A stretch of 64,000 nucleotides of DNA from Lachnospiraceae bacterium (GTDB lineage: Bacteria; Bacillota; Clostridia; Lachnospirales; Lachnospiraceae): NCBI GenBank assembly GCA_017474455.1, contig JAFVHP010000024.1:1-64000 (forward strand), in the 5' to 3' direction. Below the pieces are notes generated by a model. The model saw nothing but the letters and a program-made list of their open reading frames with translations. It was not told the DNA's origin and did not search any database. The position numbers and the translations under genes are program-made. Below, in pieces: positions 347 to 42,567 of the stretch; the first letter of the stretch is position 1, and each line of letters starts with the position of its first letter.

Positions 347-1114
347 TTAAAAGAGCTCCCGCAGCGGTTTTATCCCGATCCCTTCCTCTTCGAGGCGGGC
401 GCGGATCGTCCTGACGAACTCGAGGGCTTTTACGCCGTCGCCGTGGACGCAGATGGAAGCGGCGTCGAGGGTGATATCCTGGCCGTCGTAGGTACGGACT
501 TTGTGTTCGCGGATCATGCGGATCGTACGGGCGATGGCTTCTCCTTCATCGGTGATCATGGCGCCGGGCAGGCGGCGGTTCCTGAGGGACCCGTCCGCCT
601 CATAGGCGCGGTCCGTGAAGTATTCCGCCGCGGCGGCAAGGCCGAGGTCTTTTGCCGCGCGTAAGAGTTCGCCGCCGGAGAGCGCGAGGACGATGAGCGA
701 ACTGTCAAAGTCGCGGATGGCGCAGCAGACGGCTTCCGCCATGGCATAGTCTTTCGCGGCCATGTTGTAGAAGGCACCATGCGGTTTTACGTGCTGCATC
801 TTAGTGCCTTCTGCCTTCAGGAAGGCGTCAAGGGCGCCGAGCTGGTACATTGTGTAGGCATAGGACTCGTCGGGGGAGACGGCCATATTGCGGCGGCCGA
901 AACCCATCAGGTCAGGAAAGCCCGGGTGGGCGCCGATGCCGATGCCGGCTTCTTTTGCCGTTTTCACAGTCTGTCTCATGACGACGGGATCGGACGCGTG
1001 GTACCCGCAGGCAACGTTGGCAGACGAGATGAGGGGTATGATCTCATTATCCAGGCCGAGTGTATATCTGCCGAAGCTTTCCCCGAGATCGCAGTTCAAA
1101 TCTATAGCAGGCAT
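347..1114 (-). CDS. pxpA: 5-oxoprolinase subunit A (LamB/YcsF family)
   Basis: This 255-residue protein is full length for the LamB/YcsF family. It shows the N-terminal DLNCDLGE block, the NVACGYHASDP and GAHPGFPD blocks, VKPHGA near the middle and ICVHGD near the C-terminus; the His and Asp residues of these blocks line the active site of this deacetylase-like fold. PxpA works with PxpB and PxpC to hydrolyse 5-oxoproline (pyroglutamate) to glutamate using ATP in the cytoplasm. It is the last gene of a six-gene minus-strand operon, 26 bases after accC, with a strong AAAGGAGG site before the ATG. Assignment is firm from motifs plus the adjacent pxpBC genes. Confidence 0.95.
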   Translation of the reverse strand: MPAIDLNCDLGESFGRYTLGLDNEIIPLISSANVACGYHASDPVVMRQTVKTAKEAGIGIGAHPGFPDLMGFGRRNMAVSPDESYAYTMYQLGALDAFLKAEGTKMQHVKPHGAFYNMAAKDYAMAEAVCCAIRDFDSSLIVLALSGGELLRAAKDLGLAAAAEYFTDRAYEADGSLRNRRLPGAMITDEGEAIARTIRMIREHKVRTYDGQDITLDAASICVHGDGVKALEFVRTIRARLEEEGIGIKPLRELF

Positions 1115-1140
1115 AGTCTTGCAGTCCTCCTTTTGCTGTG

Positions 1141-2490
1141 TCAGTTCCCGCCGCTCATGAATTTTGCGACGAAGCCCGTATCGGCCTCGCCGTTCCGGAA
1201 CGTTTCGGTGTCCAGGATACGGTATTGGAAGTCCAGGTTCGTATTGATGCCGGTGATGAGGGTCTCGTCCAGGGCTGCGCGCATCTTGGCGATGGCGGCG
1301 TCGCGGTCGGCGGCATGGACCAGGATCTTCGCGATCATGGAGTCGTATTCCGAGGGCACGGTGTAGCCCGTATAGAGGGCGCTGTCCACCCGGACGCCGT
1401 TGCCGGCCGGCAGGAGGAGGTTCGTGATCTTACCGGGGCTCGGCATGAAGTTCATTTCCGGTATTTCGGCATTGATGCGGCATTCGATCGCGTGGCCGCG
1501 CGGCTGGATGTCTTCCTGTTTAAAGCTCAGGGGCTCGCCCGCCGCGATACGGATCTGCTCGATCACCAGGTCGGTATCCGTGACCATCTCGGTGACGCCG
1601 TGTTCGACTTGGATACGGGTATTCATTTCCATGAAGTAGAAATTGCGGTCCCGGTCGACGATGAATTCGATCGTGCCGGCGTTGGTATAACCGGCGGTCC
1701 TGGCGGCGAGGATGGCAGCTTCGCACATCTTTTTGCGCATTTTGGACGAAACGACGGGGCTGGGCGACTCTTCGATGAGTTTCTGGTTGTTGCGCTGGAC
1801 GGAACAGTCGCGCTCACCGAGGGCGACGACGTTTCCTTCGTTATCCGCGATGATCTGCACCTCGACGTGGCGGGGATGCAGGATCAGTTTCTCGATATAC
1901 ATGGTGTCATCGCCGAACGCGTTGGCGGATTCATGCTGGGCGATGCTGAACATGCGTGTGAATTCTTCTTCGTCGAACGCTGCCCGCATACCTTTGCCGC
2001 CGCCGCCCGAAGAGGCTTTGATCATGACGGGGAAGCCGATCTTTTCGGCTTCTTCCAGAGCGGCAGCCGGATCGGTGACCGGTTCTTTCGTACCGGGCAC
2101 AACAGGGACGCCGGCTTCCATCATGGTCTTCCTGGCGGCGGATTTATTGCCCATACGGTCTATGACATCCGCGGAAGGGCCGATAAAGGTCAGGCCATTC
2201 TCTTCGCATTTGCGGGCGAATTCGCTGTTTTCGGACAAAAATCCGTATCCGGGATGCACCGCGTCACAGCCCATGTTGAGCGCGGCCTGGATGACCATGT
2301 CGATATTCAGGTAGTTTCCGCGGGCGGGGCCTTCACCGATACAGATCCGCTGGTCGGCCAGCTGCACATGCAGGCTTTTCGCGTCTTCCTTCGAGTAGAC
2401 CGCGACAGAGCGGACGCCCATACAGCGGCAGGCCCTGGCGATACGGACAGCGATCTCGCCGCGGTTCGCGATAAGTACTTTTCTAAACAC
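1141..2490 (-). CDS. accC: Biotin carboxylase subunit (AccC type)
   Basis: The 449 residues match a complete biotin carboxylase: N-terminal domain opening with KVLIANRGEIAVRI, central ATP-grasp domain with the glycine-rich GGGGKGMR loop, and the EMNTRIQVEH catalytic strand followed by a C-terminal domain. The enzyme carboxylates biotin on a carrier protein using ATP and bicarbonate. The usual QVEHPVTE reads QVEHGVTE here, a Pro-to-Gly change. Its partner carrier is encoded 16 bases upstream. No carboxyltransferase of the acetyl-CoA type is nearby; the only candidate partner is PxpC, so the pair probably serves 5-oxoproline metabolism rather than fatty acid synthesis. That role is inference from context. 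Confidence 0.92.
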   Translation of the reverse strand: MFRKVLIANRGEIAVRIARACRCMGVRSVAVYSKEDAKSLHVQLADQRICIGEGPARGNYLNIDMVIQAALNMGCDAVHPGYGFLSENSEFARKCEENGLTFIGPSADVIDRMGNKSAARKTMMEAGVPVVPGTKEPVTDPAAALEEAEKIGFPVMIKASSGGGGKGMRAAFDEEEFTRMFSIAQHESANAFGDDTMYIEKLILHPRHVEVQIIADNEGNVVALGERDCSVQRNNQKLIEESPSPVVSSKMRKKMCEAAILAARTAGYTNAGTIEFIVDRDRNFYFMEMNTRIQVEHGVTEMVTDTDLVIEQIRIAAGEPLSFKQEDIQPRGHAIECRINAEIPEMNFMPSPGKITNLLLPAGNGVRVDSALYTGYTVPSEYDSMIAKILVHAADRDAAIAKMRAALDETLITGINTNLDFQYRILDTETFRNGEADTGFVAKFMSGGN

Positions 2491-2506
2491 GACAGATCCT
2501 CCTGCT

Positions 2507-2980
2507 TCAGATTCTCTTTACGCGGAACAGCGGGTGGCCGTATTCGACCTTCTGCTCATTGGAAACGAGCACCGCTTCGATCTCGCAGTCGAATTCCGAC
2601 TGGATCTCGTTCATCAGTTTCATGGCTTCGAGGATACAGACGGTCTGTCCGGCCTTGACGTGGTCGCCTACGCGGACATAAGCGGGCGCATCGGGCGCGG
2701 GGGCGGAATAGAAAGTGCCGACGATGGGAGATACGATATATTCCTCATCGGGCGTATCTTCCGCGGCCGGTGCGGCGGCAGGCGCTTCTGCCTGTGCGAG
2801 TGGCGCAGCGGCAGGCTGGGCAGCAAACACGGGCGCAGCGGCTGCCGGAGCAGGTGCCACGACGGGCGGATGGTCCAGTTTGCTTAAATGTATTTTCGTC
2901 TCGCCTTCTTTGACCGTCAGTTCGGTCAGGGAAGAATCTTCCAGTATCTTTACAAGACCTGCGATTTTTTCAAGATCCAT
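2507..2980 (-). CDS. accB: Biotin carboxyl carrier protein
   Basis: The 157-residue protein has an N-terminal helical segment, a flexible Ala/Pro-rich linker at about residues 40-75, and a C-terminal biotinyl domain. The biotin attachment motif EAMKLM places the modified lysine at Lys121. It carries carboxybiotin between the AccC-type carboxylase encoded next and a carboxyltransferase. Gene order pxpC-accB-accC with 15-16 base gaps shows co-translation. In this operon it likely feeds the PxpBC subunits; a housekeeping acc cluster for fatty acid synthesis would normally carry accD and accA as well, which are absent here. Confidence 0.93.
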   Translation of the reverse strand: MDLEKIAGLVKILEDSSLTELTVKEGETKIHLSKLDHPPVVAPAPAAAAPVFAAQPAAAPLAQAEAPAAAPAAEDTPDEEYIVSPIVGTFYSAPAPDAPAYVRVGDHVKAGQTVCILEAMKLMNEIQSEFDCEIEAVLVSNEQKVEYGHPLFRVKRI

Positions 2981-2995
2981 AATGACTCCTTTCTG

Positions 2996-4006
2996 TTACT
3001 GCTCGTCGAACAGCTTGTTCAGGCGCTTGGCGGCAAGCCTGATCTCCAGTACTTCTTTACAGGGTACGTGGATCGCCTTGCGCATGGCTTCCAGTTCCAG
3101 GATCTCCTCGTGGTAGATCTTCTGCGCTTCTTCGATGGTGACCGCTTCAAAGCGGATCTTATGATCGGTCTTGCGCTGGACCAGTTTCGGGATATCGGCA
3201 TAGATGACCGCGCCGATCTTGGGGTAGCCGCCGGTCGTCTGCCGGTCGGACAAAAGGACGATCGGCTTGCCGTGGGACGGTACCTGGATGGCGCCGTAGG
3301 CGATGCCGTCGGATATGATATCGCTCGTACCGGCGGAGGCGATGAAGGGGCCTTCCAGCCGGCATCCCATGCGGTCGAAGTCGCCGGTCACGGTGTATTC
3401 CTCATTCAGGAAGGTATGGATGCCCTGCTTTGTGAACATCTTGTCCTGCGGTCCGAGGACGACCCTGAGCGTGGCGCTGTCCTGTTCGAAATTGTCGGGC
3501 GTGAGCTTCCTGGAAAGGAAGAAGGGGAGATAACGCCGTTTGATGCGGAAGTTGATATAATCGCCTTCCTTGAGCTTCCTGCCCTTGAATCCGCCGATGC
3601 CGCTCTTTAAGTTCGTACAGCGGCTGCCCATGACGGTCGGGATCTGCAGGTAGCTGGAGAAAGCGATATAGCCCCTGGTGCCGGTCCTGGCGCTGCCGAA
3701 TTTCAGGATGTCGCCCTTTTTCATATAAATGGCCGTGTACATATCGGCGGGTTTGCCGTTGATGGTGGCTGTAAAGTCACCGCCGGTGATCGCGATGATC
3801 GTATCGGAGGTAAATTCCAGCGTGGGACCGATCAGGGTGAACTCCAGCACCGCTTCATTTTCGGGATTGTCGATCAGAAGGTTGGCGATCTTAAAGGATC
3901 TTACGTCCATGACGCCGGCAACGGAAAATCCCTGGCTCTGGTAGCCGTAGCGCCCGAGATCCTGTACTGTCGTGAGCATGCCGCCCTTTAATATGCGAAT
4001 ACCCAT
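2996..4006 (-). CDS. pxpC: 5-oxoprolinase subunit C (biotin-dependent carboxyltransferase family)
   Basis: 336 residues, normal for PxpC/KipA. The N-terminus carries the family block around ILKGGMLTTVQDLGRYGYQ (residues 4-22), and the middle and C-terminal parts hold the Gly/Ser-rich AHS2 core (for example SDGIAYGAIQVPSHGKP). Family members are annotated as biotin-dependent carboxyltransferases because the AHS2 fold also occurs in urea carboxylase. With PxpB it forms the ATP-using half of the 5-oxoprolinase. It starts three bases after the pxpB stop, so the two are translationally coupled, and accB follows at once. Confidence 0.94.
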   Translation of the reverse strand: MGIRILKGGMLTTVQDLGRYGYQSQGFSVAGVMDVRSFKIANLLIDNPENEAVLEFTLIGPTLEFTSDTIIAITGGDFTATINGKPADMYTAIYMKKGDILKFGSARTGTRGYIAFSSYLQIPTVMGSRCTNLKSGIGGFKGRKLKEGDYINFRIKRRYLPFFLSRKLTPDNFEQDSATLRVVLGPQDKMFTKQGIHTFLNEEYTVTGDFDRMGCRLEGPFIASAGTSDIISDGIAYGAIQVPSHGKPIVLLSDRQTTGGYPKIGAVIYADIPKLVQRKTDHKIRFEAVTIEEAQKIYHEEILELEAMRKAIHVPCKEVLEIRLAAKRLNKLFDEQ

Positions 4007-4009
4007 GGA

Positions 4010-4780
4010 TCAGGCCTCCTTTCCGTTTTTTTCGCCGCCATCTGCGGTATCCGGCGCGCTGCCTTCGCGGATCGTGACTTCATAGGTGCCGTCGTCGACC
4101 GCGGCTTTGATGCGGTTGAATTCATCTTCATCCACAGGATAGAAATGGATGTATTCGCCGGCATAGACCAGGATCGGGACTTCCCTGTCCGGATCATAGG
4201 TCCTGACCGGTGTCTTGCCCATCAGCTGCCAGCCGCCGGGCGACTCCATGGGATAGATCCCGGTCTGGGAACCGCCGATGCCGACGGAACCGGCAGGAAT
4301 GGCTTTTCTGGGATTGGCCAGTCTCGGCGTATGGATGCGTTCGTCCAGGCCGCCTAGGTAACAGAAGCCCGGCAGGAAACCGAGCATATAGATCAGGTAC
4401 TCGGTCGAGGAATGGATGCGGATCACTTCTTCCTCGGACAGCCCGGCGTGTTCGGCGATCGTATGCAGGTCGGGACCGTATTCCCCGCCGTAGCATACCG
4501 GGATCTCGAATACGCGCCTTGCCGAGCTCTCCGTATCCAGATCCATTTTGAGCAGAGCGGTGAGGCGGCGCTTCAGCTGGCCGTAGGATATGACCTGCGG
4601 ATTATAGTTGATCAGGAGCGATGCGTAGGTAGGGATGACATCCACGATACCCGGTGTCTGCTGCTGCCGGATCAGCTTTACGGTCGCAGCGATCTTGGCG
4701 TTAACTTCCGGAGAGATCTCCTGTTTAAAGGCAATCAGTATGGAAGTGTCGCCTTCAGTCAGTATTTTTACGTCTTCCAT
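4010..4780 (-). CDS. pxpB: 5-oxoprolinase subunit B (KipI/AHS1 family)
   Basis: The 256-residue sequence has the AHS1/KipI hallmark: a GFLPGFCYLGGL loop, then TPR-NPRKAIPAGSVGIGG and a QTGIYPMESPGGW block near residues 150-210. PxpB pairs with PxpC; together with PxpA they convert 5-oxoproline to glutamate. In Bacillus subtilis the homologue KipI also inhibits sporulation kinase A, but nothing here suggests that role. The C-terminal tail after about residue 240 is charged and probably disordered. It is the second gene of the operon, 100 bases after the transporter gene, with a hairpin in that gap. Confidence 0.94.
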   Translation of the reverse strand: MEDVKILTEGDTSILIAFKQEISPEVNAKIAATVKLIRQQQTPGIVDVIPTYASLLINYNPQVISYGQLKRRLTALLKMDLDTESSARRVFEIPVCYGGEYGPDLHTIAEHAGLSEEEVIRIHSSTEYLIYMLGFLPGFCYLGGLDERIHTPRLANPRKAIPAGSVGIGGSQTGIYPMESPGGWQLMGKTPVRTYDPDREVPILVYAGEYIHFYPVDEDEFNRIKAAVDDGTYEVTIREGSAPDTADGGEKNGKEA

Positions 4781-4819
4781 ATAGTCGTTCCTTTTTCTGC
4801 AGACATTTTAAAATGACAG

Positions 4820-4848
4820 AAGGCGCAGTCCATGAGGGGCTGCGCCTT
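4820..4848 (-). other. Intercistronic hairpin between transporter gene and pxpB
   Basis: A perfect 9-bp stem (AAGGCGCAG/CTGCGCCTT, 11-base loop) lies in the 100-base gap after the NRAMP-like gene. No T-run follows immediately, so it is a poor terminator. It may set mRNA stability or partially separate transporter expression from the enzyme genes. Confidence 0.6.
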
Positions 4849-4880
4849 GAATCATACCGTTGACGCGTAGATTATACGGA

Positions 4881-6092
4881 TCAGGCGAAGAGCTTGACGA
4901 TATTGGAACCGAAGCCCTTGATGCCGAAATAGGCGGCGATGACAACGACGATGATGCCGATGATGAGCAGCCATGTGGGATGCTTGTAATCCTCGCCGAC
5001 GACCTTCTTGTTCTTCGAAGCAATAAGGCTGATGCCGAGGGAAATAGGAAGGATCAGGCCGTTGACAGCGCCTGCGATGATGAGGAGCTGGGCGGGTGTC
5101 GTGCCGACGATCAGCATGATCAGTGTTGAGACTGCGATGAAGCCGATGACCCATGCGTTCTCATGTGCGGCAATGGATTTGTGGAAGGTCTTCAGGAAAG
5201 ATACCGAAGTATAGGCCGCGCCGATGATGGAAGTGATCGCCGCGGAAAGGATGACCAGGCCGGCAAAACGATAGCCGATCTCGCCTGCGCCTTGACGGAA
5301 AGCGTCAGCAGCGGGGTTGCCCTGTGTGGAAAGGACAGCGCCCTTTGCGACTACGCCGAGGACAGCCAGGAACAGGAGGATACGGACGATCGTAGCGACC
5401 AGCATGCCGGTCAGGGAGCTCTTGCGGATCTGGCCGAGATTCTTCTCGCCGGTAACACCCGCGTCGATCAGACGGTGCGCGCCCGCGAAGGTGATGTAGC
5501 CGCCGACCGTACCGCCGAGCAGTGTCAGGATAGGGCTGGTCATGTCACCGAGAGCCGCGGAAGGCATGAAAGTATTCTTCAGCGCGTCGCCGACGGGCGG
5601 TTTGACGATAAAGATCATAACAAGGATAACAACGATCATGACGCCGCCGAGGATCTTCGCAACGGTATCCATAACGGACTTCGCGTTCCTGACGACGAAT
5701 ACGAGGATGGCAAGAATACCGGAGATCAGTACGCCGACCTTTGTGGGGATGCCGAGCAGGGCATTGAAGCCGAGCGCGCCGCCGCCTACGTTACCGATGT
5801 TGAATACGAGACCGCCGATAACGATCAGCGCCGAAAGCACATAGCCGAGACCGGGAAGGATGGTGTTGGCCACATCCTGTCCGCGCATGCCGGACACGCA
5901 GAGTACGCGCCAGATATTGACCTGCGCGAAGGCTGCCAGCAGGACGGAGACCAGGATGACAAAACCGAAACTGGAGCCGAGAGAGCTCGTAAAGGTAGCC
6001 GTCTGAGTCAGGAAACCGGGTCCGATCGCTGAAGTAGCCATCAGGAATGCCGCGCCGAGTATTGCACCGGTGCTCTTGTTTTTCTGGTTCAT
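4881..6092 (-). CDS. NRAMP-superfamily transporter without metal-site motifs (YcsG-like)
   Basis: 403 residues with about eleven predicted membrane helices and the overall NRAMP layout. The first helix reads AIGPGF (residues 22-27) where true metal transporters have the DPGN motif, and no MPH-type metal motif is seen in the sixth helix region, where LGGTVGGYITFAG stands instead. Thus the residues that bind Mn or Fe in NRAMP proteins are missing. B. subtilis ycsG, an NRAMP relative, also sits beside ycsF/pxpA. I infer uptake of 5-oxoproline or a related organic compound rather than a metal. It is the first gene of the operon, with a clear AAAGGAGG site and its own promoter. Confidence 0.85.
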   Translation of the reverse strand: MNQKNKSTGAILGAAFLMATSAIGPGFLTQTATFTSSLGSSFGFVILVSVLLAAFAQVNIWRVLCVSGMRGQDVANTILPGLGYVLSALIVIGGLVFNIGNVGGGALGFNALLGIPTKVGVLISGILAILVFVVRNAKSVMDTVAKILGGVMIVVILVMIFIVKPPVGDALKNTFMPSAALGDMTSPILTLLGGTVGGYITFAGAHRLIDAGVTGEKNLGQIRKSSLTGMLVATIVRILLFLAVLGVVAKGAVLSTQGNPAADAFRQGAGEIGYRFAGLVILSAAITSIIGAAYTSVSFLKTFHKSIAAHENAWVIGFIAVSTLIMLIVGTTPAQLLIIAGAVNGLILPISLGISLIASKNKKVVGEDYKHPTWLLIIGIIVVVIAAYFGIKGFGSNIVKLFA

Positions 6093-6166
6093 GGGTTGTT
6101 CCTCCTTTGAAGTGTGTTGCAGTACGTGATGCAGCCGGTTGAATAATTATCCGGCAGTTTCGGAAT

Positions 6167-6175
6167 ATTATAACA
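6167..6175 (-). promoter_or_regulatory. Extended -10 promoter of the 5-oxoproline operon
   Basis: On the minus strand this reads TGTTATAAT, a perfect -10 with the TGn extension. The -35 region (around 6189-6195, TTGCTT) is weak, as is common for extended -10 promoters. It lies 75 bases before the transporter start codon. Confidence 0.75.
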
Positions 6176-6199
6176 TATTATCCCAAGTAAGCAAAAATA

Positions 6200-6218
6200 T
6201 TTGGATATTCTATCCAAA
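6200..6218. promoter_or_regulatory. 19-bp palindromic operator upstream of the 5-oxoproline operon
   Basis: TTTGGATA-TTC-TATCCAAA is a perfect inverted repeat with 8-bp arms. It sits directly upstream of the -35 region. The inner TGGATA-N3-TATCCA layout resembles the TGGAAA-N3-TTTCCA form of IclR-family sites; the B. subtilis kip operon regulator KipR is an IclR protein. No regulator gene is adjacent, so the factor is unknown. Confidence 0.6.
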
Positions 6219-6248
6219 ATCCGGCAGGCAGGCCTGCTGGAAAAGAGG

Positions 6249-6280
6249 AAAAAAACAGCGCACCCGGTGCGGGTGCGCTG
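6249..6280 (-). terminator. Terminator of the deglycosidase-like operon
   Basis: A perfect 10-bp stem (CAGCGCACCC/GGGTGCGCTG, 5-base loop) is followed on the minus strand by seven T. It lies 30 bases past the stop of the isomerase gene. Confidence 0.92.
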
Positions 6281-6310
6281 CCCTGTGTCTCAAAAACTGC
6301 TGTATGCCGA

Positions 6311-7279
6311 TCACAGTTTTTCCAGGATCTTTTTATTCATGGCGACATAGTGGGCGAGCTGGTCCACGCAGTTGACGTCTGAATAGAAGTGATGACCTTC
6401 GAACTCGCTGGCGATGTAGCCCTTGTAGCCGTACTCGACGAATTTCGGGATCAGCTCTTCATACGGAATGCAGGGATCGTGGTCGTCGTTGTCCAGATAG
6501 TAGAATTTGCCGTGGACGTAGAAAACGCAGTCCATGACGTCCTTAAACTGCTCGATCCGGGCGGGATGGTTGAACTTGCCGAACATTTCCTCCGCGTAGT
6601 GCTTTTCGATCTCTGTGAAGTCGCCGGCCTCGACCTTTGCCATATCGCCGCCTTCGGCGTGGATCTTTACGATCTCGTCCAGCGCTTCCTTACGACAGCC
6701 GAACTCGACGGCCTGTCTTAAGTAAAGCTCGTGGGGCATATACTGGAAGATCGAGAAATCGGGCACAAATCCGAGATAGCCTTTGCCTTCGCCCTTCATG
6801 ATCTCGAAGTATTCTTTCCATACATCGACTTCCGGGTGATGCGGCCAGTGCATTTCGATCGTCAGTTTGATATCCAGCTCTTTGCAGTAAGGGATCATCT
6901 TCCGGAAGATGGCGGGAGAGATCGCGTGCTGGGTGCGGACCAGGGGGAAACCGGCCTTTTTGGCATAGATCATGTCATTCAGCGTGTACTGGATGATCTC
7001 GGCTTCGGTCAGGTCCCTGTCGGTCCTGGTGCCCATGTCGATATAGGCCGACCAGCAGACAGGATCCAGTTCATATTTTTCGAGGAGCCCCCTGAAATTG
7101 AAGAGCCATTCATCCGACGGGAAAGGGTATTCGGGGACCATCTGCGCGGCCACGATCTCAATACCTTTATATCCCATCTCATGGACAGCCTTGAGGCATC
7201 CTTCCAGATCCAGCTTTTCATGAATATATTCAGTGGAAAGGCTGTACAGTGAAACGCCAATCTTGATATCGTTATTCAT
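6311..7279 (-). CDS. TIM-barrel isomerase, likely C-glycoside deglycosidase alpha subunit
   Basis: 322 residues of the xylose-isomerase-like TIM-barrel (sugar phosphate isomerase/epimerase) family. Likely metal ligands, by order and spacing as in ketose epimerases, are Glu142 (TIEMHW), Asp174 (PDFS), His256 (VHGKFY) and Glu292 (SEFEG), with an insertion of roughly 50 residues between the second and third. The next gene upstream encodes a small protein like the beta subunit of bacterial C-glycoside deglycosidases (DgpBC, DfgAB); those enzymes pair exactly this barrel with that partner to cleave the C-C bond of 3-keto-C-glycosides such as 3-oxo-puerarin. I infer the same complex here. A plain epimerase is the alternative. 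It is the second gene of a two-gene operon with its own terminator. Confidence 0.8.
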   Translation of the reverse strand: MNNDIKIGVSLYSLSTEYIHEKLDLEGCLKAVHEMGYKGIEIVAAQMVPEYPFPSDEWLFNFRGLLEKYELDPVCWSAYIDMGTRTDRDLTEAEIIQYTLNDMIYAKKAGFPLVRTQHAISPAIFRKMIPYCKELDIKLTIEMHWPHHPEVDVWKEYFEIMKGEGKGYLGFVPDFSIFQYMPHELYLRQAVEFGCRKEALDEIVKIHAEGGDMAKVEAGDFTEIEKHYAEEMFGKFNHPARIEQFKDVMDCVFYVHGKFYYLDNDDHDPCIPYEELIPKFVEYGYKGYIASEFEGHHFYSDVNCVDQLAHYVAMNKKILEKL

Positions 7280-7300
7280 CGTCGTTCTCCTTTCCTCTTA

Positions 7301-7717
7301 TTATTCACAGACAAGCGCTGCCGTCCGGTCGCTCTCCAGTGTCAGGTACTGCCCGAAATAGCCGGTGTAGGGCACACGGTGCTTCATATAGACGCGAAGG
7401 CTGTGCTCTCCCTTTTCAAGGCCTCCGGGGCACATCACGCGGATAGTGGCAGGGGTGCGGACATCCCAGTATTCACGGAAGAGTTCCGGGATCTCATCCA
7501 TCGTGAACTGTTTCCCGTTCAGACCGAAATAGACATATGTATTGTCGAGCCGTTCCCCGTCCAGCTCGAAATACAGGTCTTCAATGCAGCTTAAAAAGCA
7601 TCCCCTGTAAGACGGATACTTGATCTGGAACTCATACCCCATTGTTACGCCCGCGACCACATAGTTGCGGATGGGCTTCTGACAGATCATGATCTCGTTG
7701 TAAGCAACAAAATCCAT
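7301..7717 (-). CDS. DUF6379-type protein, likely C-glycoside deglycosidase beta subunit
   Basis: A 138-residue soluble protein without signal peptide or membrane segment, rich in predicted beta strands and aromatic residues (for example DNTYVYFGLNGKQF and GYFGQYLTLE). Its length, the N-terminal NYVVAGVTMGYEFQIKYPSYRG segment split around residues 18-39, and its place directly before a TIM-barrel isomerase match the family first called DUF6379 and later recognised as the C-glycoside deglycosidase beta subunit. That beta-sandwich subunit closes over the barrel's active site. The start has a strong GAGGAGG site. The downstream isomerase begins 21 bases after its stop. Function is inferred from family and pairing; substrate is unknown. 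Confidence 0.75.
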   Translation of the reverse strand: MDFVAYNEIMICQKPIRNYVVAGVTMGYEFQIKYPSYRGCFLSCIEDLYFELDGERLDNTYVYFGLNGKQFTMDEIPELFREYWDVRTPATIRVMCPGGLEKGEHSLRVYMKHRVPYTGYFGQYLTLESDRTAALVCE

Positions 7718-7752
7718 AACTGTACCTCCTCATGGCAGTTAGCAATAATTAC

Positions 7753-7795
7753 GGGCAGTCAGCGGACTGCCCATGCAATCCCTGCCTCTATTATA
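7753..7795 (-). promoter_or_regulatory. Promoter and leader hairpin of the deglycosidase-like operon
   Basis: The minus strand has a perfect TATAAT at 7790-7795, about 73 bases before the start codon; the -35 is not recognisable. A perfect 8-bp hairpin (GGGCAGTC/GACTGCCC, 4-base loop) occupies 7753-7772 in the leader and could be an operator or an mRNA-stabilising element. Confidence 0.6.
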
Positions 7796-8531
7796 CAGGA
7801 CGGCCGGGGCGGGAGAGAAGAGATGAATCGGTTATTTTACGCAGGCGTGTATACATTGTGCCGTTTGCGGTGTACGGCTCCGGTATGCTGCAGGAGTGCC
7901 GGAACGATTGAGGCGTCCGGAGCGCCAGGAGCGCTGTACGCGGGCAGAGGTACATATTGATCTGTTGTTTGGCCCAATCCGGTCGGTACCGGTTTTGACT
8001 GTATAAGCGGAATACACATATGGTCATGAGATCTCCATAAGACCGGTCTGTACAGGATTTTCAACAAACCGGCGGAATACATATTGATATATATGTCAAA
8101 GCGTTTACATAGGTATTTAAAGAAAGCGGTGCACCGGTCATGTACAGATCATATTTTGAAAGATTTCTTTTAAGTATGTGTCCGCTGCATGCCGGATGAA
8201 AGAATCTCACCGATCAGATTTGAAAACCATATGAATCAGTATATATCAGCAGCGATGCGGGAGTTTTTGCTGTACATACGATCTGGAAATATTGCAGATA
8301 TTGGTATGTGATCATCAGTTTCGTGTAATGATGCATACGGACTGAACGGGACATCAGGCAAAAATAATATGCTTGTGCCTCAGAAGGGAATGGGAGAAAG
8401 AGGATCGGTCTTAAGGTTAACAGACAGTTCCGTAAAGCATCAAAAGTCCTTCTGCCGCCATCTCCTGAGTATACATATAGCGCCTTAAACAAGCATAAAG
8501 TAAAAAATAAAAATAATTATGTAAAAGATAC
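7796..8531. other. Gene-poor, AT-richer spacer with repeated TACATATTGA motif
   Basis: No convincing gene: short minus-strand frames lack ribosome sites and resemble nothing. Two exact copies of TACATATTGA lie at 7951-7960 and 8078-8087, the same motif seen in the spacers at 35.3-35.8 kb and 43.7-44.4 kb. Base composition is more AT-rich than the flanking genes. Confidence 0.6.
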
Positions 8532-8561
8532 TTGACATAATTCTATAATAGTGGCATTATA
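8532..8561 (+). promoter_or_regulatory. Promoter with overlapping inverted repeat before the membrane protein/XRE pair
   Basis: A perfect -35 TTGACA (8532-8537), 17-base spacer and -10 CATTAT (8555-8560). An inverted repeat TATAAT-N6-ATTATA (8544-8561) covers the spacer and -10, a good place for the XRE repressor encoded in the operon to bind. About 100 bases separate it from the start codon. Confidence 0.65.
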
Positions 8562-8658
8562 CACTCATGGAGATGATCAACTGTCAAAGCCGGCACAGCA
8601 AAATCATTAAGACAAAAGATACAGTATTCAGTATTTCAGAATATATGGGAGGTCAGTT

Positions 8659-9192
8659 ATGAACATTTTTGCATTATCAGGCGTCGCAGTCGGGATGATG
8701 GTCGGGGTGATCATTATCGTTGCATTATTCAAATTCGCGAATACGAACCGGGCGGTAAAGACAGAGTATGACGAGCGCCAGCTCGCGCTCCGCTACAAAG
8801 GATACAGGGTCGGTTTTTGGACCATGCTGGTCTATGAAGTGGTCATGATCGTTCTGGATATCGGCGGGATCCGGATCCCCGCGGAAGCGTTTGTCATCCA
8901 TTTCGGCGCAGTGGTCGCCGGCTGCCTGGGACTGAGCATCCACAGCATCTGGAATGATGTGTACTGGGGCCTAAACAACAACCGCAGGCGTTATCTGGTC
9001 GTCTTTGCCGTCCTGTTCCTGATCAACGCAGTGCCTGTCGTCAACGCGGTCTCGGAAGGGACAATGTTCAAAGACGGGAAGCTGTCGACAGCATCGATCA
9101 ATCTGATGGTCGCCATTCTGATCCTTGTGATCGGCGCAGTGCTCCTTATCAAGCAGTTGGCGGACAGAAAAGCAGAGGCAAATGAAGACTGA
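8659..9192 (+). CDS. Four-helix membrane protein of an XRE-paired family, function unknown
   Basis: 177 residues. I predict membrane helices at about residues 5-24, 52-71, 76-95, 113-133 and 148-165, with a cytosolic segment EYDERQLALRYKGYR after the first helix. The DERQ...RYKGY motif recurs in small Firmicutes membrane proteins that precede a tiny XRE regulator. A good GGAGG site lies before the ATG. The downstream XRE gene starts 36 bases after the stop. Biochemical role is unknown; the pairing suggests self-regulated expression or envelope sensing. Confidence 0.8.
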   Translation: MNIFALSGVAVGMMVGVIIIVALFKFANTNRAVKTEYDERQLALRYKGYRVGFWTMLVYEVVMIVLDIGGIRIPAEAFVIHFGAVVAGCLGLSIHSIWNDVYWGLNNNRRRYLVVFAVLFLINAVPVVNAVSEGTMFKDGKLSTASINLMVAILILVIGAVLLIKQLADRKAEANED

Positions 9193-9429: not shown

Positions 9430-9447
9430 TCCCGCAGGAAACTGTGC

Positions 9448-9481
9448 GGCAGGGTCTGTGCCACGGGGCACGGGCCCTGCC
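9448..9481 (+). terminator. Hairpin after the XRE gene
   Basis: A 15-bp stem with G-T pairs (GGCAGGGTCTGTGCC/GGCACGGGCCCTGCC, 4-base loop), followed by GTTTCCC. The T-run is short, so termination may be partial and allow read-through into nagA. Confidence 0.6.
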
Positions 9482-9514
9482 GTTTCCCGGTAAAAGCTAA
9501 AAAAAGGAGCTGGT

Positions 9515-33927: not shown

Positions 33928-35250
33928 ATGGCAAAACAGATAAAAACCGCTTGCGGCCTGATCGAAGGTGTCGAATGCGGTAATTACACTGTGTACAGAG
34001 GCGTGCCTTTCGCGAAGCCACCGGTCGGGGAGCGGAGGTGGAAAGCGCCGGAGAGGCCGGACGCATGGGACGGCGTGTTCAAAGCGGATACATTCTCCGC
34101 AAAGTGCATGCAGTCGGTCCCGGGGCCGGGCAACCCGTATCTGAAGGAGTTCTACACGGACCCTGAATTCTTAAGACCTTCGGATGAAGACTGCCTGTAC
34201 CTGAATATCTGGACACCTGCAGGCGCTTCCGCAGACGATAAGCTCCCGGTCGCCTTCTGGATCCATGGAGGCGGTTTCGGCGGCGGGTACAGTTCCGAGA
34301 TCGAATTCGACGGAGAAGCCTTTGCAGGGCAGGGCATCATCCTGGTCACCATCAATTACCGCTGCGGCGCGGCGGGCTTTTTAGCCCATCCCTGGCTGGA
34401 TGCGGAAAATGAAAAAGGCATCTCCGGCAACTACGGCATCCTGGATCAGATCGCGGCCCTGACCTTTGTCTATGAAAACATCGGCGCCTTCGGAGGCGAT
34501 CCGTCCAACATAACCGTCTTCGGCCAGTCGGCAGGCTGCATGAGCACCCAGGTGCTCGTGTCTTCCGGACTGACTAAAGGCATGATCGCGAAGGCCATCC
34601 TGCAGAGCGGCGTCTGCTGCAAAGTTCCGGCCTTCGACACTCTGTCCCTGAAAGATATGGAAAAGTGGGGAGAGAAATTCGTGGAGATCACCGGGGCAAA
34701 GGACCTCTGCGAGCTGCGCGCTATCCCGCAGGAAAAGCTGCTGCGGTACTGGGAGATCTACCAGGCGGAGACTTTCGGCAGGGGCATGGGACTGACCTTC
34801 GGGCCGAATGTCGACGGACATGTCCTTGAGGAAAGCGTCGGCAGCGCATACAGGAACGGTACGTTCCATCAGATCCCTTATATGGTGGGCTGCACCGGCA
34901 ACGATCTGCTCCGGACGAAGGAAGACGAAGCGGCCGGCGTCCCCGGTGCGATCCTGGACGAATGCGGCGCATGGGGAGAAAAGTGCGCGGAGCTTGGGCT
35001 TCCCGCTTATGTCTATTTCTTTGACAGACAGCTCCCCGGTGACGACTGGGGCGCGTTCCATTCCGCGGAACTCTGGTATACCTTCGGAACGCTCGGAAGG
35101 TGCTGGAGACCGATGGAAGAGCATGATCACGAACTGAGCAGTCAGATGAACACGGCCTGGGCGGATTTTATGAAGACAGGAGATCCTGCAGGCGCTGTGG
35201 AATGGCCGCCGTATACCGGGGAAGACGGGTTCGTAAAGGAATTTGCATAA
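33928..35250 (+). CDS. Type-B carboxylesterase family protein
   Basis: 440 residues. The oxyanion block WIHGGGFGGGYSS and the nucleophile elbow GQSAG (Ser201) define a type-B carboxylesterase; the catalytic Glu would lie in the DGHVLEE region and the His in DDWGAFHSAELWY. No signal peptide, so it is cytoplasmic. It is somewhat shorter than the classical 490-550 residues. A closely similar paralogue lies at 38411-39739. GGGAGGG precedes the ATG. Likely substrates are acyl or acetyl esters of sugars or aromatic compounds. Confidence 0.92.
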   Translation: MAKQIKTACGLIEGVECGNYTVYRGVPFAKPPVGERRWKAPERPDAWDGVFKADTFSAKCMQSVPGPGNPYLKEFYTDPEFLRPSDEDCLYLNIWTPAGASADDKLPVAFWIHGGGFGGGYSSEIEFDGEAFAGQGIILVTINYRCGAAGFLAHPWLDAENEKGISGNYGILDQIAALTFVYENIGAFGGDPSNITVFGQSAGCMSTQVLVSSGLTKGMIAKAILQSGVCCKVPAFDTLSLKDMEKWGEKFVEITGAKDLCELRAIPQEKLLRYWEIYQAETFGRGMGLTFGPNVDGHVLEESVGSAYRNGTFHQIPYMVGCTGNDLLRTKEDEAAGVPGAILDECGAWGEKCAELGLPAYVYFFDRQLPGDDWGAFHSAELWYTFGTLGRCWRPMEEHDHELSSQMNTAWADFMKTGDPAGAVEWPPYTGEDGFVKEFA

Positions 35251-35282
35251 GCATAAGAGACGGGCTTACACCGGACGAAGAT

Positions 35283-35333
35283 AAAAAAAGAGGAGCTGCC
35301 GCATCAGACGATAATACGGCAGCTCCTGTTTTT
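35283..35333. terminator. Terminator of the first type-B esterase gene
   Basis: An 11-bp perfect stem (AGGAGCTGCCG/CGGCAGCTCCT, 15-base loop) followed by GTTTTTA and preceded by seven A, so it can work in both directions. Confidence 0.92.
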
Positions 35334-35768
35334 ATGCTGCTTTAATCAAAGATCCTGTTCTTCCGGCGGAACTTCCGGGGAATAATGTTCCGGAGGTACT
35401 TATGCAGGCAACACCTGCTCTAACTTTATCGGTACACAAGAACAACCGCATTGGGAAAAACATATATTGAAACCTCTCATTTTCCTTGTCAATACGTATC
35501 CCGTGTGCGTTATCCGCGCAGAAAATACAGATGGCAGAGCTTGTTATTAATTCTTAATCGGTATCACATAGAACCTTTGAAGGAATCTCAGTACATATTG
35601 AGACCTGGCTTTTTTCGGTTTATGGGTATTCTCGAAAAATGGGGATATGGGATGAACATATTAAGGCAGATGAAATCAAAACACAATATGTACTCTGCCC
35701 TGAAAGCGGAATAAATAGGTACAGATAAAAACTCTCCAAAACAGCTTTTATGCCGTAACATGCAGACT
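35334..35768. other. AT-richer spacer with TACATATTGA motif, no convincing gene
   Basis: One exact TACATATTGA (35592-35601) and two near copies (35461-35470 and, reversed, around 35684-35693). A plus-strand frame of 87 codons here lacks a ribosome site and has no recognisable motif; it looks accidental, though its end (EKWGYGMNILRQMKS) faintly recalls ATP-dependent transcription factor-like fragments and might be a relic. Confidence 0.45.
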
Positions 35769-35769
35769 G

Positions 35770-35804
35770 AAAAAGGCTGCCGCATTATTGAATGCGACAG
35801 CCTT
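35770..35804 (-). terminator. Terminator downstream of the Gfo/Idh/MocA gene
   Basis: A 14-bp stem with one mismatch (AAGGCTGCCGCATT/AATGCGACAGCCTT, 4-base loop) followed by TTTTT on the minus strand, beyond the tandem repeats at the gene's 3' end. Confidence 0.85.
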
Positions 35805-35854
35805 CTGCATATATACGAATTTGTTGATCCTGTTCAGGGGCTGATACAGCGGCC

Positions 35855-35927
35855 GAATCATTTGCAGCGTTCAGATCATCTGCAGCCGGCCAGATCATCT
35901 GTAGCGGTTGGATCATCTGTCGCCGTC
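35855..35927. repeat. Tandem 18-19 bp repeats at the 3' end of the oxidoreductase gene
   Basis: Four units begin at 35855, 35874, 35893 and 35911, each carrying GATCATCTG (GAATCATTTG in the first). The last unit contains the gene's own stop codon, so the others look like repeated copies of the coding end displaced past the stop, as by replication slippage. Confidence 0.75.
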
Positions 35928-37083
35928 AAATATCAGTCCGGCGTCTTTCCTGCTTTCTTCCATTACTTCGACCGTATCCAGCGTTGCCTGCAGGCGGTCC
36001 CTGAGGGCTTCTCTTTCATCCGCCAGCAGCATTTTTGTCAGCGTCTTGACTTCATAATACCAGCGGTTGGTGAATGGATGCGGGTGCGTCATTTCGTTGA
36101 AGGTCTCGTCGGTATCCCGCGTCTTCACATGGATGTCGGAGAAACCGTTGGGGCCGTTGCCTATGGTGATGAATCCGTTTTCACCTTCGATCTGGAAGAA
36201 GTTGTCGCCGAAGGTATCCTTCGCGCCGAAGGACATACTGACGAAGTCGGGATACTGCATATAGAGGACGCCTGAAGTATCGATAATGTCGGACTTGCCG
36301 GCAAGATCACCGAGGCCTTCCTGCTGTTTGGGCGATGTGAGAGGGAACATGTTGGCAAAGTATGTGGCGCTGTCCGGCTTTCCGAACAGGACGACGTTCA
36401 GGTATACATTGTAATAATTCAGATCCATCAGGCTGCCGCCCGCGAACCTGGGATTGAAGTAAGTAGGCAGTTCACCTGCCTTCAGATCGTTGTAGAGAGG
36501 TGTGAACTGGCTGTAATTGCCCATGACCAGGCGCACGCGGCCAATCTTCGGCAGTTCCCTTTTCAGGATCTCGAAATTCGGCAGGAAGGAAGTCGGGTTC
36601 ATCTCCACCAGGATCAGGTCCTTTTCGGCGGCGATGTCGATGAGTTCCTTCGCGTGATCGGCGCGGGTCGTGAAGGGCTTTTCCAGGAGCACGTTCTTAC
36701 CGGCCAGCAATGCCTTCTTTGCCTGCTCATAATGAAGCAGATTGGGCGTCGCGATATAAACAAAGTCAAAATCAGGATCCGCAAGGAATGCGTCCATGTC
36801 CGTGTACATTGTTATGGGGCCATCCCTTCGCAGCCAGTTCTTCTTCCGTTACTTCCAGGGCGTCTATTTCCGGCGCGATGCCGAGCGGCGGCCAGGCATA
36901 CTGAAAATCCGGATCGACGGAAACCGTGCCGCAGTCCGCGAATTTGGAAGCCAGCCAGTTTGCTTTGCCCTGTGAGCGGGAATAAACGGCAGAAAGCCGG
37001 ATGCCTTCGACCTGAGGAAACGCTTCAAGGATCCGGGGAACGATCATGCCGGAGCCGATGGTGCCTATGCTGATCTCTTTCAT
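35913..37083 (-). pseudogene. Gfo/Idh/MocA-family oxidoreductase, frameshifted
   Basis: The N-terminal NAD-binding part starts at the ATG 37083 (ISIGTIGSGMIVPRIL, GxGxxxxR-like loop) with an AGGAGG site. The rest, from YTDMDAFLADPDFDFVYIATPN through KPFTTRADH (the conserved EKP block, reading LLEKPFTT), continues in another frame to 35913. Total length is not a multiple of three; the shift must lie between about 36809 and 36846, where the second frame has a TAA just upstream. Roughly 33 residues before the shift (DPDFQYAWPPLGI onward) have no clear counterpart in the family. Such NAD-dependent enzymes oxidise or reduce sugars, including 3-keto-glycoside formation. Confidence 0.85.
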
Positions 37084-37230
37084 GTGATACCTCCTGATGA
37101 ATGATTGCCAAAACCTGTTCCTGCCTGAACGGAGCGTTCTTATCTGTCTTCATTGTAGGACTGGCGGCAGTATCAGTAAAGGGAGTACAATGCAGTTACA
37201 AAGTATACAGCTGTTATCGGAGGAGAGAAA

Positions 37231-38406
37231 ATGATTAAACGCAGACTGGGAAAGACCGGCCTTATGGTCAGTGAAGTTGGTTTTGGCGGAGAATGGCTGG
37301 AACGCCATGAAGAGGCCGAATCCATTGAACTTATAAAATACGCGGGAGAAAAGGGCATCAACATTATCGACTGCTGGATGCCGGATCCCAAATCGAGAGA
37401 TATCATCGGCAAGGCGATCAAAGAGAACAGGGAGAACTGGTATGTGCAGGGCCACATCGGTTCCACGTACCAGAACGGCCAGTACGTGCGGACCAGGGAC
37501 ATGCAGCATGTCAGACCCGCCTTTGAAGACTTGTTGGCGAGGATAAACCGTATCGATCCGGCCTCCGTCATGGATGACGACAGGGCGTATATCGATCTGG
37601 GCATGATCCATTACATAGATTCAAAGGAAGAATGGGAGACAAGCATGCACTCGGAGTATATCGAGTACGTGCATATGCTGTATGAGAGTGGGAAGATCCG
37701 GCATATCGGACTGTCCAACCATAATCCGAGGATCGCGAAACTGGCAGTGGAGACGGGCTTTATCGAAATGATCCTGTTCAGCATCAACCCGGCTTTCGAT
37801 ATGAAGCCGGCCAGCGAGGACCTGGACACGATGTTCGCCGGATACGACGGGGAATTTTCCGGAATCGATCCGGAACGGGCAGAGCTGTACAGGCTCTGTG
37901 AAGAAAAAGACGTGGGGATCACGGTCATGAAGGGATTCTTCGGAGGCCGCCTTTTCAAGGCGGAGACTTCACCCTTCGGGGCGGCCTTTACGCCGGTGCA
38001 GTGCATCCATTACAGCCTGACGCGTCCCGGCGTCGCCTCCATCATGTGCGGATATGATACCAAAGAACAGGTGGACCAGGCTGTCGCCTACGAGGACGCT
38101 TCTGCAGACGAAAGGGACTACGCCTCCGTCATCGCCGGGGCTCCTCTCCATGCTTATGCAGGCCAGTGCACCTATTGCGGGCATTGCCGCCCCTGTCCGA
38201 TGGATATCGATATCGCCCTGGTCAACAAATTCTATGACCTGGCGGTGGAACAGCCCGAAGTGCCGCAGAGTGTAAGAGAACACTACGGGGCACTCCCGCA
38301 GACAGCCGCTGCCTGCATAGGCTGCAGAAGCTGTGAGGAGAGATGCCCCTTTGGTGTTAAGATCGCGGACAGAATGGAGAAGACCGCGCAGTTGTTCGGA
38401 TGCTGA
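37231..38406 (+). CDS. Aldo/keto reductase with C-terminal ferredoxin-like Fe-S domain
   Basis: 391 residues. An N-terminal aldo/keto-reductase barrel (RRLGKTGLMVSEVGFGG) is followed by two cysteine clusters for 4Fe-4S centres, CTYCGHCRPCP near residue 312 and CIGCRSCEERCP near residue 358. In the barrel Asp47 and the later His (MIHYID) are kept, but the catalytic Tyr and Lys positions read Asp52 and Gln/His (VQGH), so classical NADPH-carbonyl chemistry is doubtful. GGAGGAG precedes the ATG. It diverges from the oxidoreductase gene and belongs to the same sugar locus by position. Confidence 0.9.
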   Translation: MIKRRLGKTGLMVSEVGFGGEWLERHEEAESIELIKYAGEKGINIIDCWMPDPKSRDIIGKAIKENRENWYVQGHIGSTYQNGQYVRTRDMQHVRPAFEDLLARINRIDPASVMDDDRAYIDLGMIHYIDSKEEWETSMHSEYIEYVHMLYESGKIRHIGLSNHNPRIAKLAVETGFIEMILFSINPAFDMKPASEDLDTMFAGYDGEFSGIDPERAELYRLCEEKDVGITVMKGFFGGRLFKAETSPFGAAFTPVQCIHYSLTRPGVASIMCGYDTKEQVDQAVAYEDASADERDYASVIAGAPLHAYAGQCTYCGHCRPCPMDIDIALVNKFYDLAVEQPEVPQSVREHYGALPQTAAACIGCRSCEERCPFGVKIADRMEKTAQLFGC

Positions 38407-38410
38407 AAGA

Positions 38411-39739
38411 TCAGAAGATCTCCGTGTAAGGATCCTCTTCGGTGTACTTTCTCCAGGCTCCGGAGGCATCCGGCCGTCCTGTTTTCATGAAGCAGAACCA
38501 GTTGGCCAGCATCCTTTCAGAGATAGCATGGTCTTCATCCTGCATAGGACGCCAGCAGCGGCCAAGAGTACCGAACATATACCAGGTCTCGCAGGTATGG
38601 AAAGCGCCCCAGTCGTCGCCGGGAAGTTTGTGCATGAAGGCATAGACATAGGAACCGGGGGCGCCGGGCGCTTCGTTCGTGCGCCGGGCAAAAGCTTTGC
38701 ATTCGCGCAGCAGCATGCCGGGATCGTCCGCCGCAAGGTCTTCCGGCGTAGTGCCCAGGTCATTGCCGGTACAGCCCGCAATGTAGGGGATCACAGGCAG
38801 ATGGCCGTTCTTCCAGCAGTCCTTCACAGTCTCTTCGAGTACATAGCCGTCTACGTTGGGAACGACGACCAGGCCTTTGCCGGCCGCCATCATTTCGCCG
38901 TTGAACCGGCCGTAGGCTTCCAGCAGCTTTTCTGCCGGGAGGGACCGGAGCTCATCCAGGCTTGCAGCGCCCGTATACTCGACCATCTTCATACCGAATT
39001 CTTCCTCTTCGGCATGCGTAGGCGTAAGCAGGAAGTCTTCTTCGCAGGCCACACCGCTCTGGAGGATAGCCTTCGCGATCAGGCCTTTCGTAAGCGGGGA
39101 GCTTAACAGGACCTGACAGCTCATGCAGCCTGCGGACTGGCCGAAAATCGTTATATTATCGGGATCGCCGCCGAAAGCGGCGATGTTTTCATGAACGAAG
39201 CGCAGGGCCGCGATCTGGTCCAGGATGCCGTAATTGCCTGATATGCCCCTTTCGTTCTCCGCGTCCAGCCAGGGATGGGTCAGGAATCCGAAGATGTTGA
39301 CCCGGTAGTTGATCGTAACGAGGATAATGCCGGCCTTCGCGTTGGCTGCCCCGTCGAATTCGATCTCCGAGCTGTAACCGCCGCCGAAGCCGCCGCCGTG
39401 GATCCAGAAAGCGACCGGGCACCGGCTGCCGGCAGGATCGGCGAGCGCCTCATCCGGTGCCCAGATATTCAGGTACAGGCAGTCTTCGGAAAAGTCCGGT
39501 AAAAACTCCGGATCAGAATAGAACTCCTTCAGGAACGGATTACCTTCGCCGGGCGCGTACTGCGTGCAGCGGCAGGGGAAAGTATCCGCTTTCCGGGTGC
39601 CGGACCAGGCTTCGGGCTCTTCGGGCGGCATGAAACGGAGCGCGCCGACGGGCGGCTTTGCATAGGGCACACCCTTGAATACCGTATAACCGTTTTCCTG
39701 TACGCCTTCGATCAGGCCATATTTTGTCTGTATTGTCAT
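38411..39739 (-). CDS. Type-B carboxylesterase family protein (paralogue)
   Basis: 442 residues from the ATG at 39739, chosen because GGAGGAACAG lies just before it, inside a longer frame that would start with TTG. Ser202 lies in GQSAG, and the oxyanion block WIHGGGFGGGYSSEIEFDG is shared word for word with the esterase at 33928-35250. Asp/Glu and His (GDDWGAFHTCETWY) complete the triad. Cytoplasmic. Two such paralogues flanking an oxidoreductase and reductase suggest stepwise removal of ester groups from a plant or dietary glycoconjugate; substrate unknown. Confidence 0.92.
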   Translation of the reverse strand: MTIQTKYGLIEGVQENGYTVFKGVPYAKPPVGALRFMPPEEPEAWSGTRKADTFPCRCTQYAPGEGNPFLKEFYSDPEFLPDFSEDCLYLNIWAPDEALADPAGSRCPVAFWIHGGGFGGGYSSEIEFDGAANAKAGIILVTINYRVNIFGFLTHPWLDAENERGISGNYGILDQIAALRFVHENIAAFGGDPDNITIFGQSAGCMSCQVLLSSPLTKGLIAKAILQSGVACEEDFLLTPTHAEEEEFGMKMVEYTGAASLDELRSLPAEKLLEAYGRFNGEMMAAGKGLVVVPNVDGYVLEETVKDCWKNGHLPVIPYIAGCTGNDLGTTPEDLAADDPGMLLRECKAFARRTNEAPGAPGSYVYAFMHKLPGDDWGAFHTCETWYMFGTLGRCWRPMQDEDHAISERMLANWFCFMKTGRPDASGAWRKYTEEDPYTEIF

Positions 39740-39826
39740 GTCCTGTTCCTCCGTCAAAAATCCATTATTATTCCACAGTTTGGCGGCGTTATGCCGCAGA
39801 CTTCCCGTGGCCTTTCCGTGACCTTC

Positions 39827-40759: not shown

Positions 40760-40777
40760 CTTAGTCCGCTCCGGTCA

Positions 40778-42400: not shown

Positions 42401-42465
42401 GTCCGTTCCTTTCTGCCGCTTTCCCGCATCCGGGCTGCGGCACAGTGTGTTTGATACAGCAGGAA

Positions 42466-42490
42466 ATGTAAATACATTATGTAATTACAT
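42466..42490. promoter_or_regulatory. Tandem operators ATGTA-WW-TACAT (two sites)
   Basis: ATGTAAATACAT (42466-42477) and ATGTAATTACAT (42479-42490), 13 bp apart, lie 66-90 bases upstream of the solute-binding protein gene. The palindromic arms are identical in both. Confidence 0.75.
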
Positions 42491-42555
42491 GTGCTTTTAC
42501 AAGCATAATAACAATGTACGGATCGGATTTCTATGGTAATAATGTAACAATTTAT

Positions 42556-42567
42556 ATGTAAATACAT
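42556..42567. promoter_or_regulatory. Operator ATGTAAATACAT (third site)
   Basis: An exact copy of the first site lies mid-way in the divergent spacer, about 80 bp from the tandem pair. It may allow looping by a tetrameric LacI-family protein. Confidence 0.7.

Follow-up and report, generated by a model that had tools for sequence, protein, structure and literature searches.

Described C-glycoside deglycosidases

C-glycoside deglycosidases (CGDs) are bacterial enzymes that detach sugars from plant compounds by breaking a carbon-carbon bond which is otherwise very stable. Among those described, DgpBC (PuCGD/PuCGE) from the gut strain PUE (7bvr, 7exz) also cleaves 3-keto-O-glucosides, and exchange of its Tyr39 for Phe costs the enzyme about 10^4-fold of its C-C cleavage and 2.4-fold of its C-O cleavage (PMC10628242). 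DfgAB (EuCGD) from Eubacterium cellulosolvens (7bvs) accepted C6-glucosides, while AgCGD2 (7dnm) accepted a single tested compound, a C8-glucoside (PMC8563793), and the metal and base residues compared below are those that were mutated in that study. Catenibacillus decagia carries six dgpBC clusters, a DfgAB homologue and what is called an 'exceptional number' of 11 dgpA genes, and in sister species dgpA is located elsewhere and is unlinked (PMC11170127). The O-glycoside eliminase AtOGE performs analogous chemistry on 3-keto-glycosides at a Mn site and is described as being without sequence similarity to the CGEs (PMC10628242); the pair reported here includes a beta subunit, and CGDs are its best matches in the PDB.

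The gene pair and its flanking elements

The window, by which we mean the whole stretch of 64,000 nucleotides that was analysed, carries on its minus strand a two-gene unit in which the beta gene (138 aa) comes first and the alpha gene (322 aa) follows after a gap of 21 bases. The features of this unit are as follows.

7790..7795, minus strand: TATAAT, candidate -10 box, a perfect match, from the sequence
7751..7774, minus strand: leader hairpin or inverted repeat with a 10-pair stem, separating the -10 box from the beta start
7725..7730, minus strand: AGGAGG, candidate ribosome-binding site of beta, from the sequence
7301..7717, minus strand: beta subunit gene, CGDB/DUF6379 (DgpB-like), 138 aa, with Tyr37 as the equivalent of DgpB Tyr39
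7287..7293, minus strand: AAAGGAG, candidate ribosome-binding site of alpha, inside the 21-base gap
6311..7279, minus strand: alpha subunit gene, DgpC-like xylose-isomerase-like TIM barrel, 322 aa, from PF01261, phmmer and residues
6252..6284, minus strand: intrinsic terminator 3' of alpha, 15-pair stem, loop of 3, T run

Both open reading frames, the leader hairpin and the strong terminator had been proposed in a preliminary description of this DNA and are all present. The promoter that it also assigned to the unit is borne out as far as the perfect TATAAT goes and no further, because a scan of 6050..8700 gave no -35/-10 promoter pair on the minus strand and no -35 consensus for the TATAAT. 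The 8-base core of the inverted repeat in the leader hairpin has a single occurrence in the window and the 33 host loci scanned. The sole Rfam match around the pair was to a miRNA family at 9434-9490, below the gathering score of that family. Compared with near relatives both proteins are under purifying selection, dN being 0.077 and dS about 3 (near saturation) for alpha against locus L065, and 0.20 and 1.8 for beta against L066.

Family assignment and active-site residues

The beta protein matches the Pfam family CGDB (PF19906) with 117.7 bits (E 2.8e-34, cut-off 27.6), and the Pfam match of alpha is to the general TIM-barrel fold AP_endonuc_2 (PF01261) only; no NCBIfam model was at or above its cut-off for either protein. 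When the PDB was searched with phmmer, alpha matched 9m3a_A at 4e-55 and 7bvr_A (DgpC) at 1.8e-53 over residues 4-321, and beta matched 9m3a_B at 4.5e-23 and DgpB at 1.1e-18. With both chains 9m3a came first, 7bvr (DgpBC) second and the rest after, and the top eight matches of alpha and beta alike were CGD complexes or the fused 8qrz; included among the matches are 9m3a, 7bvr (in which DgpB is named), 7bvs (in which DfgB is named), 7dnm (AgCGD2), 8qvc and 9m3b. By alignment all seven metal and catalytic residues of AgCGD2 are kept in alpha, the metal ligands E142, D174, H256, K258 and E292 corresponding to E147, D179, H269, K271 and E305 and the catalytic residues H144 and E294 to H149 and E307. 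Tyr37 of beta is the equivalent of DgpB Tyr39, the residue needed for C-C cleavage in PuCGE, and at the position of PuCGE Tyr303(alpha) the window alpha has His296.

Since the CGDB match, the PDB matches, the catalytic residues and the Tyr39 equivalent all point to the CGDs, we file the pair with that family; judged by sequence, it is a previously undescribed member of the C-glycoside deglycosidase (3-keto-glycoside lyase) family and thus of a known enzyme kind. Support for this assignment comes from the profile match, from the sequence matches in the PDB and from every catalytic residue tested, the features found being a CGDB beta, an alpha that is DgpC-like by sequence, and adjoining genes on one strand; complex formation, activity and substrate are what we infer for the pair. 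The preliminary description had likewise placed it with the two-subunit C-deglycosidases DgpBC and DfgAB, on account of a small protein of the DUF6379 type and a Glu-Asp-His-Glu metal set, and this is supported in each respect, as the profile search against the CGD beta family returned PF19906 and the metal set is E142, D174, H256 and E292, to which K258, H144 and E294 are added here. The term DUF6379 was absent from the literature searched.

The likeness to DgpBC, with 31.4% identity in alpha and 31.5% in beta, extends to the metal set, the catalytic His and Glu, Tyr39(beta) and the side-by-side genes. The window pair, however, stands alone without an adjoining dgpA or transporter, has His296 in place of Tyr303(alpha), and DgpC sits in a different alpha clade. 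The closest PDB match of both chains, 9m3a (33% identity in alpha, 38% in beta), has E301 where the window alpha has H296 and groups with DgpC, outside the window clade. AgCGD2, whose residue numbers in 7dnm agree with those of PMC8563793, shares the seven metal and catalytic residues with the window alpha and also has His at the PuCGE Tyr303 position, but alpha identity to it is 28.8%. With DfgAB the beta aligns over 87 residues at 34.5% identity and retains the tyrosine, and the window alpha matches at 4.7e-34.

Orthologous loci

Genome contigs were scanned with the alpha protein; since such a scan detects close relatives only, the 24 related loci that were found, 23 of them with 64-87% alpha identity and one (L087) with 43%, are a non-exhaustive set. 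Their sources include Parasporobacterium MAGs (ruminant jejunum), Candidatus Scybalocola, Blautia parvula, Anaerobium, Herbinix, Clostridium caldaquaticum and rabbit-gut MAGs, and Eubacterium ramulus has an orthologue that is 84% identical over the first 116 residues, which are all that precede the contig end. A quick tree of 93 alphas places the window alpha in a five-row clade with L065, L066, L067 and L086 (SH-aLRT 100), which is nested in a 23-row group (support 99).

Several of the contigs are short and the counts of neighbouring genes are therefore lower bounds. Gfo/Idh/MocA oxidoreductases, the family of DgpA, lie near the pair in at least 15 of the 24 loci, and a 16th, in L083, is cut by the contig end; a hydratase-like TIM-barrel protein is found in 9/24, an S15-type hydrolase also in 9/24 (in three of these on the opposite strand), and same-strand genes for ribose-type importers in 7/24 (L065, L066, L067, L079, L086, L087 and L088). 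Genes of the DAPG/phloretin-hydrolase family are present in eight loci, one of which, L086, belongs to the five-row clade of the window, and were not seen in the other 16 of 24; they were recognised by BLAST in L068, L069, L073, L077, L079 and L084 and as DAPG_hydrolase by Pfam in L086 (1e-39) and L071 (1e-42), and the nearest solved structures to the L079 hydrolase are, weakly (6e-5), phloretin hydrolases. The E. ramulus oxidoreductase, encoded directly upstream of beta and the one locus oxidoreductase that was compared with the PDB, matches 9m37 (titled P581a DgpA2-isoorientin complex) at 6e-127. This orthologue context suggests C-glucosides of polyphenols with a phloroglucinol ring as substrates. 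Six loci (L068, L070, L073, L076, L078 and L084) also have an FAD_binding_2 protein, mostly together with NuoG/NuoF-like subunits, and for the one in L070 the nearest model is that of vinyl phenol reductase, with a score below its cut-off; these genes suggest further reduction of the aglycone.

The preliminary description had argued that there is no transporter next to the pair and that the substrate may for this reason be new. The first part is correct for sugar transporters; the next gene downstream (4881..6092) is of the NRAMP family. The second part is not supported, because importer genes and oxidoreductases do occur in related loci, in the numbers given above, and the host has about 33 CGDs, this pair among them, many with solute-binding proteins nearby, so that an absent transporter is no argument for a new substrate. 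A functional link of the pair with the NRAMP gene was considered and rejected, as that gene lies beyond the strong terminator in a cluster with LamB_YcsF, biotin carboxylase, CT_A_B and CT_C_D genes. The cluster, directly downstream of the pair at 347-6092 and on one strand, consists of LamB_YcsF, biotin carboxylase, biotin carrier, CT_A_B, CT_C_D and the NRAMP-family gene, and we take it to be of the 5-oxoprolinase type. Elsewhere in the window, 33928-43676 holds two carboxylesterase-family genes, a YdjC-like protein, a DUF3502 solute-binding protein, a LacI regulator and a Gfo/Idh/MocA protein whose profile match starts only at position 51; perhaps this is another locus for the utilisation of acylated glycosides.

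The CGD repertoire of the host genome

The host genome (2,624,103 bases, 96.55% complete, 1.3% contamination) gave 34 CGDB matches at E 0.01, of which 33 are over the cut-off. In the loci fetched from it, 27 clusters spread over 14 contigs (for example C6:69821-72842, C26:120753-127705 and C30:17957-20655) comprise 34 alpha-like and 33 beta-like ORFs, and the seven metal and catalytic residues are kept in 34/34 alphas and the tyrosine in 33/33 betas. The 34th CGDB match comes right after the beta at C19:99251-99442 and is out of frame with it, so this beta (L050, C19:99137-99555), whose last stretch lies in another frame, may be frame-disrupted or mis-sequenced. An alpha on C30 has an ATG and an open frame of 342 aa. 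Four CGDs of the host are fusions in one chain.

C6:71427-72842, C19:141571-143028 and C26:193016-194461: alpha-beta fusions
C19:133439-134851: beta-alpha fusion

Both possible fusion orders are thus found in one genome, and the three alpha-beta fusions form a long-branched clade of their own. In the tree the host alphas are scattered, at least 14 changes being forced by well-supported branches, and in this set 14 of the 34 are closer to a protein of another genome than to any host paralogue; the other 20 are nearest to a host paralogue and therefore duplication contributed too. AraC-type regulators with a GH39-like domain are found beside CGD genes in the host and relatives (L023:9481-11931, L041:5598-7301 and L066:5053-7500), the helix-turn-helix match of the L041 regulator being below cut-off; these regulators are possibly sugar-sensing.

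The comparison of copy number covered some 1,100 other genomes, every one from the phylum of the host. Searching the genus with alpha gave matches in 7 of 62 genomes, own genome included, and the others had 9, 5, 2, 2, 1 and 1. At least one CGDB match was found in 16 of 392 genomes of the order sample, 4 of 398 of the phylum sample and 35 of 397 of the family sample, and over the cut-off in 15, 4 and 34 genomes, respectively; these samples overlap partly and each includes the own genome. Because at most 11 candidates per genome were scored in these large samples, seven genomes were recounted, which gave 33 for the own genome and 14, 9, 8, 6, 6 and 5 for the others. Thus, the host carries more CGD copies than any other sampled genome, the next highest having 14. 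In the literature searched, no report was found that exceeds the six dgpBC clusters of C. decagia (PMC11170127). The host resembles that bacterium in having several dgpBC clusters and differs from it in having 33 beta genes and, counting every kind, 13 Gfo/Idh/MocA proteins. A congener (G025, L089-L091, C8:59463-105269) has eight CGDB genes in about 46 kb, a CGD island, whereas the host copies are dispersed.

DUF3502 solute-binding proteins lie near host CGDs above chance, with 9 of the 21 within 3 kb, 13 within 5 kb (2.4 expected, P 5e-8) and the same 13/21 within 8 kb. Gfo/Idh/MocA genes are not clearly enriched, with 0/13 within 3 kb, 3/13 within 5 kb (P 0.18) and 5/13 within 8 kb (P 0.047); all these P values assume independently placed genes, an assumption that local duplication breaks. 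Neither kind of gene adjoins the window pair. Away from the pair, the host has a DgpA-type protein (C30:82016-83083) that matches DgpA 7xr9 at 1.9e-85 and a DgpA2-like protein (C17:61051-62187) whose best match is 3e18, and in the fetched host loci a close copy of the E. ramulus DgpA2-like gene is absent, the best being 27% identical. The E. ramulus hydratase-like gene does have an 85%-identical host copy (C19:100775-101755), which as a hydratase is a weak match (8ro4, E 4e-6, behind 2zds and 3cny). A DAPG hydrolase was not found in the host by a search whose controls were equally silent, nor was a GMC-type glycoside oxidase by one whose controls rang in 6/14. There are six GH3 matches in the host as against 0-24 in 61 other genomes of its genus; this is an ordinary number, and the idea of CGDs replacing hydrolases such as the GH3 enzymes is therefore without support here.

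Proposed reaction and alternatives

Based on these comparisons, we propose that the pair is probably a heteromeric, divalent-metal-dependent 3-keto-glycoside lyase of the CGD family that acts as follows. C3 of the glucose would first be oxidised by a Gfo/Idh/MocA oxidoreductase encoded elsewhere, for which the DgpA-type protein of C30:82016-83083 is the best candidate. The metal would be held by E142, D174, H256, K258 and E292 of alpha, the C2 proton would be taken by H144 of alpha with E294 assisting, and the ionised phenol of the aglycone would be steadied by Y37 of beta, upon which the C-C bond would break by beta-elimination. The predicted products are the aglycone and 2-hydroxy-3-keto-glucal, and the latter, for whose hydration C19:100775-101755 is the candidate, would yield glucose after hydration and reduction. 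As natural substrate, a polyphenol C-glucoside that contains a phloroglucinol-type ring (C-glucosyl flavone or dihydrochalcone) would be likeliest. The oxidoreductase and the hydratase that serve the window pair would act in trans. Several of the findings above weigh against this explanation: next to the pair the host has neither an oxidoreductase nor a sugar transporter, its Gfo/Idh/MocA genes lack clear enrichment near CGDs, a DAPG hydrolase (in the search with silent controls) and a close copy of the E. ramulus DgpA2-like gene (in the fetched loci) were missing, PuCGE Tyr303(alpha) is replaced by His296, and the hydratase candidate is a weak match.

The physiological substrates of a lyase of this same kind could instead be 3-keto O-glycosides, with C-C cleavage as a side ability. 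PuCGE handles both, so that C- versus O-glycoside use is not fixable from sequence, O-glycosides are far commoner in plants (PMC10628242), and the number of beta genes, 33, seems higher than the known range of C-glycosides calls for. Yet the tyrosine equivalent to Tyr39(beta), which is little needed for C-O cleavage (PMC10628242), is kept in the window and in 33/33 host betas, and we consider this alternative unlikely. That alpha is a plain sugar isomerase, an epimerase or a keto-glucal hydratase with beta as an accessory would fit its Pfam match to a general fold only, but its top eight PDB chains are the fused 8qrz or CGD alphas from structures that also contain a CGDB-type chain, its 16 PDB matches do not include the hydratase 8ro4, and the hydratase-like neighbours are a separate family that scores 22-25 bits on the CGD alpha profile where the others score at least 272; this alternative is very improbable. 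Least credible of all is that a transferred operon left the pair behind as an orphaned remnant with little function in the host. In favour of this are that the orthologous pair is often within a larger operon in relatives and is alone here, that the nearest alpha found is in a roe-deer MAG (L065, 87%) and that 51% is the best alpha match from the 61 other genomes of the genus; against it are the intact ORFs, the ribosome-binding sites, the terminator, the presence of all catalytic residues and a low dN/dS.

Significance

The fate of plant C-glycosides in the gut is decided by CGDs, few of which have been assayed so far. The pair represents an orthologous group in Lachnospiraceae, Oscillospiraceae and Clostridiaceae (going by record names) whose neighbourhoods hint at the substrate. 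The pair itself is ordinary-looking and it is the host repertoire that deserves follow-up. This genome holds over 30 natural variants of a single enzyme whose catalytic residues are constant, a ready panel on which to study what determines aglycone specificity. Since PuCGE has been run in reverse (PMC13273386), this panel may also be useful for enzymatic C-glycosylation.

As a broader and tentative reading, which taken as a whole we hold to be possible rather than probable, the host may be a lyase specialist that uses many plant glycosides through a shared C3 oxidation by few oxidoreductases and some 33 aglycone-tuned lyases, that is supplied by matching DUF3502 solute-binding proteins and sensors of the AraC type with a GH39 domain, and that obtained its repertoire from many separate acquisitions and local duplication. 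If this is the case, then what this bacterium multiplied to diversify glycoside breakdown would be the eliminating enzyme, in the way that glycoside hydrolases are multiplied in other gut bacteria.
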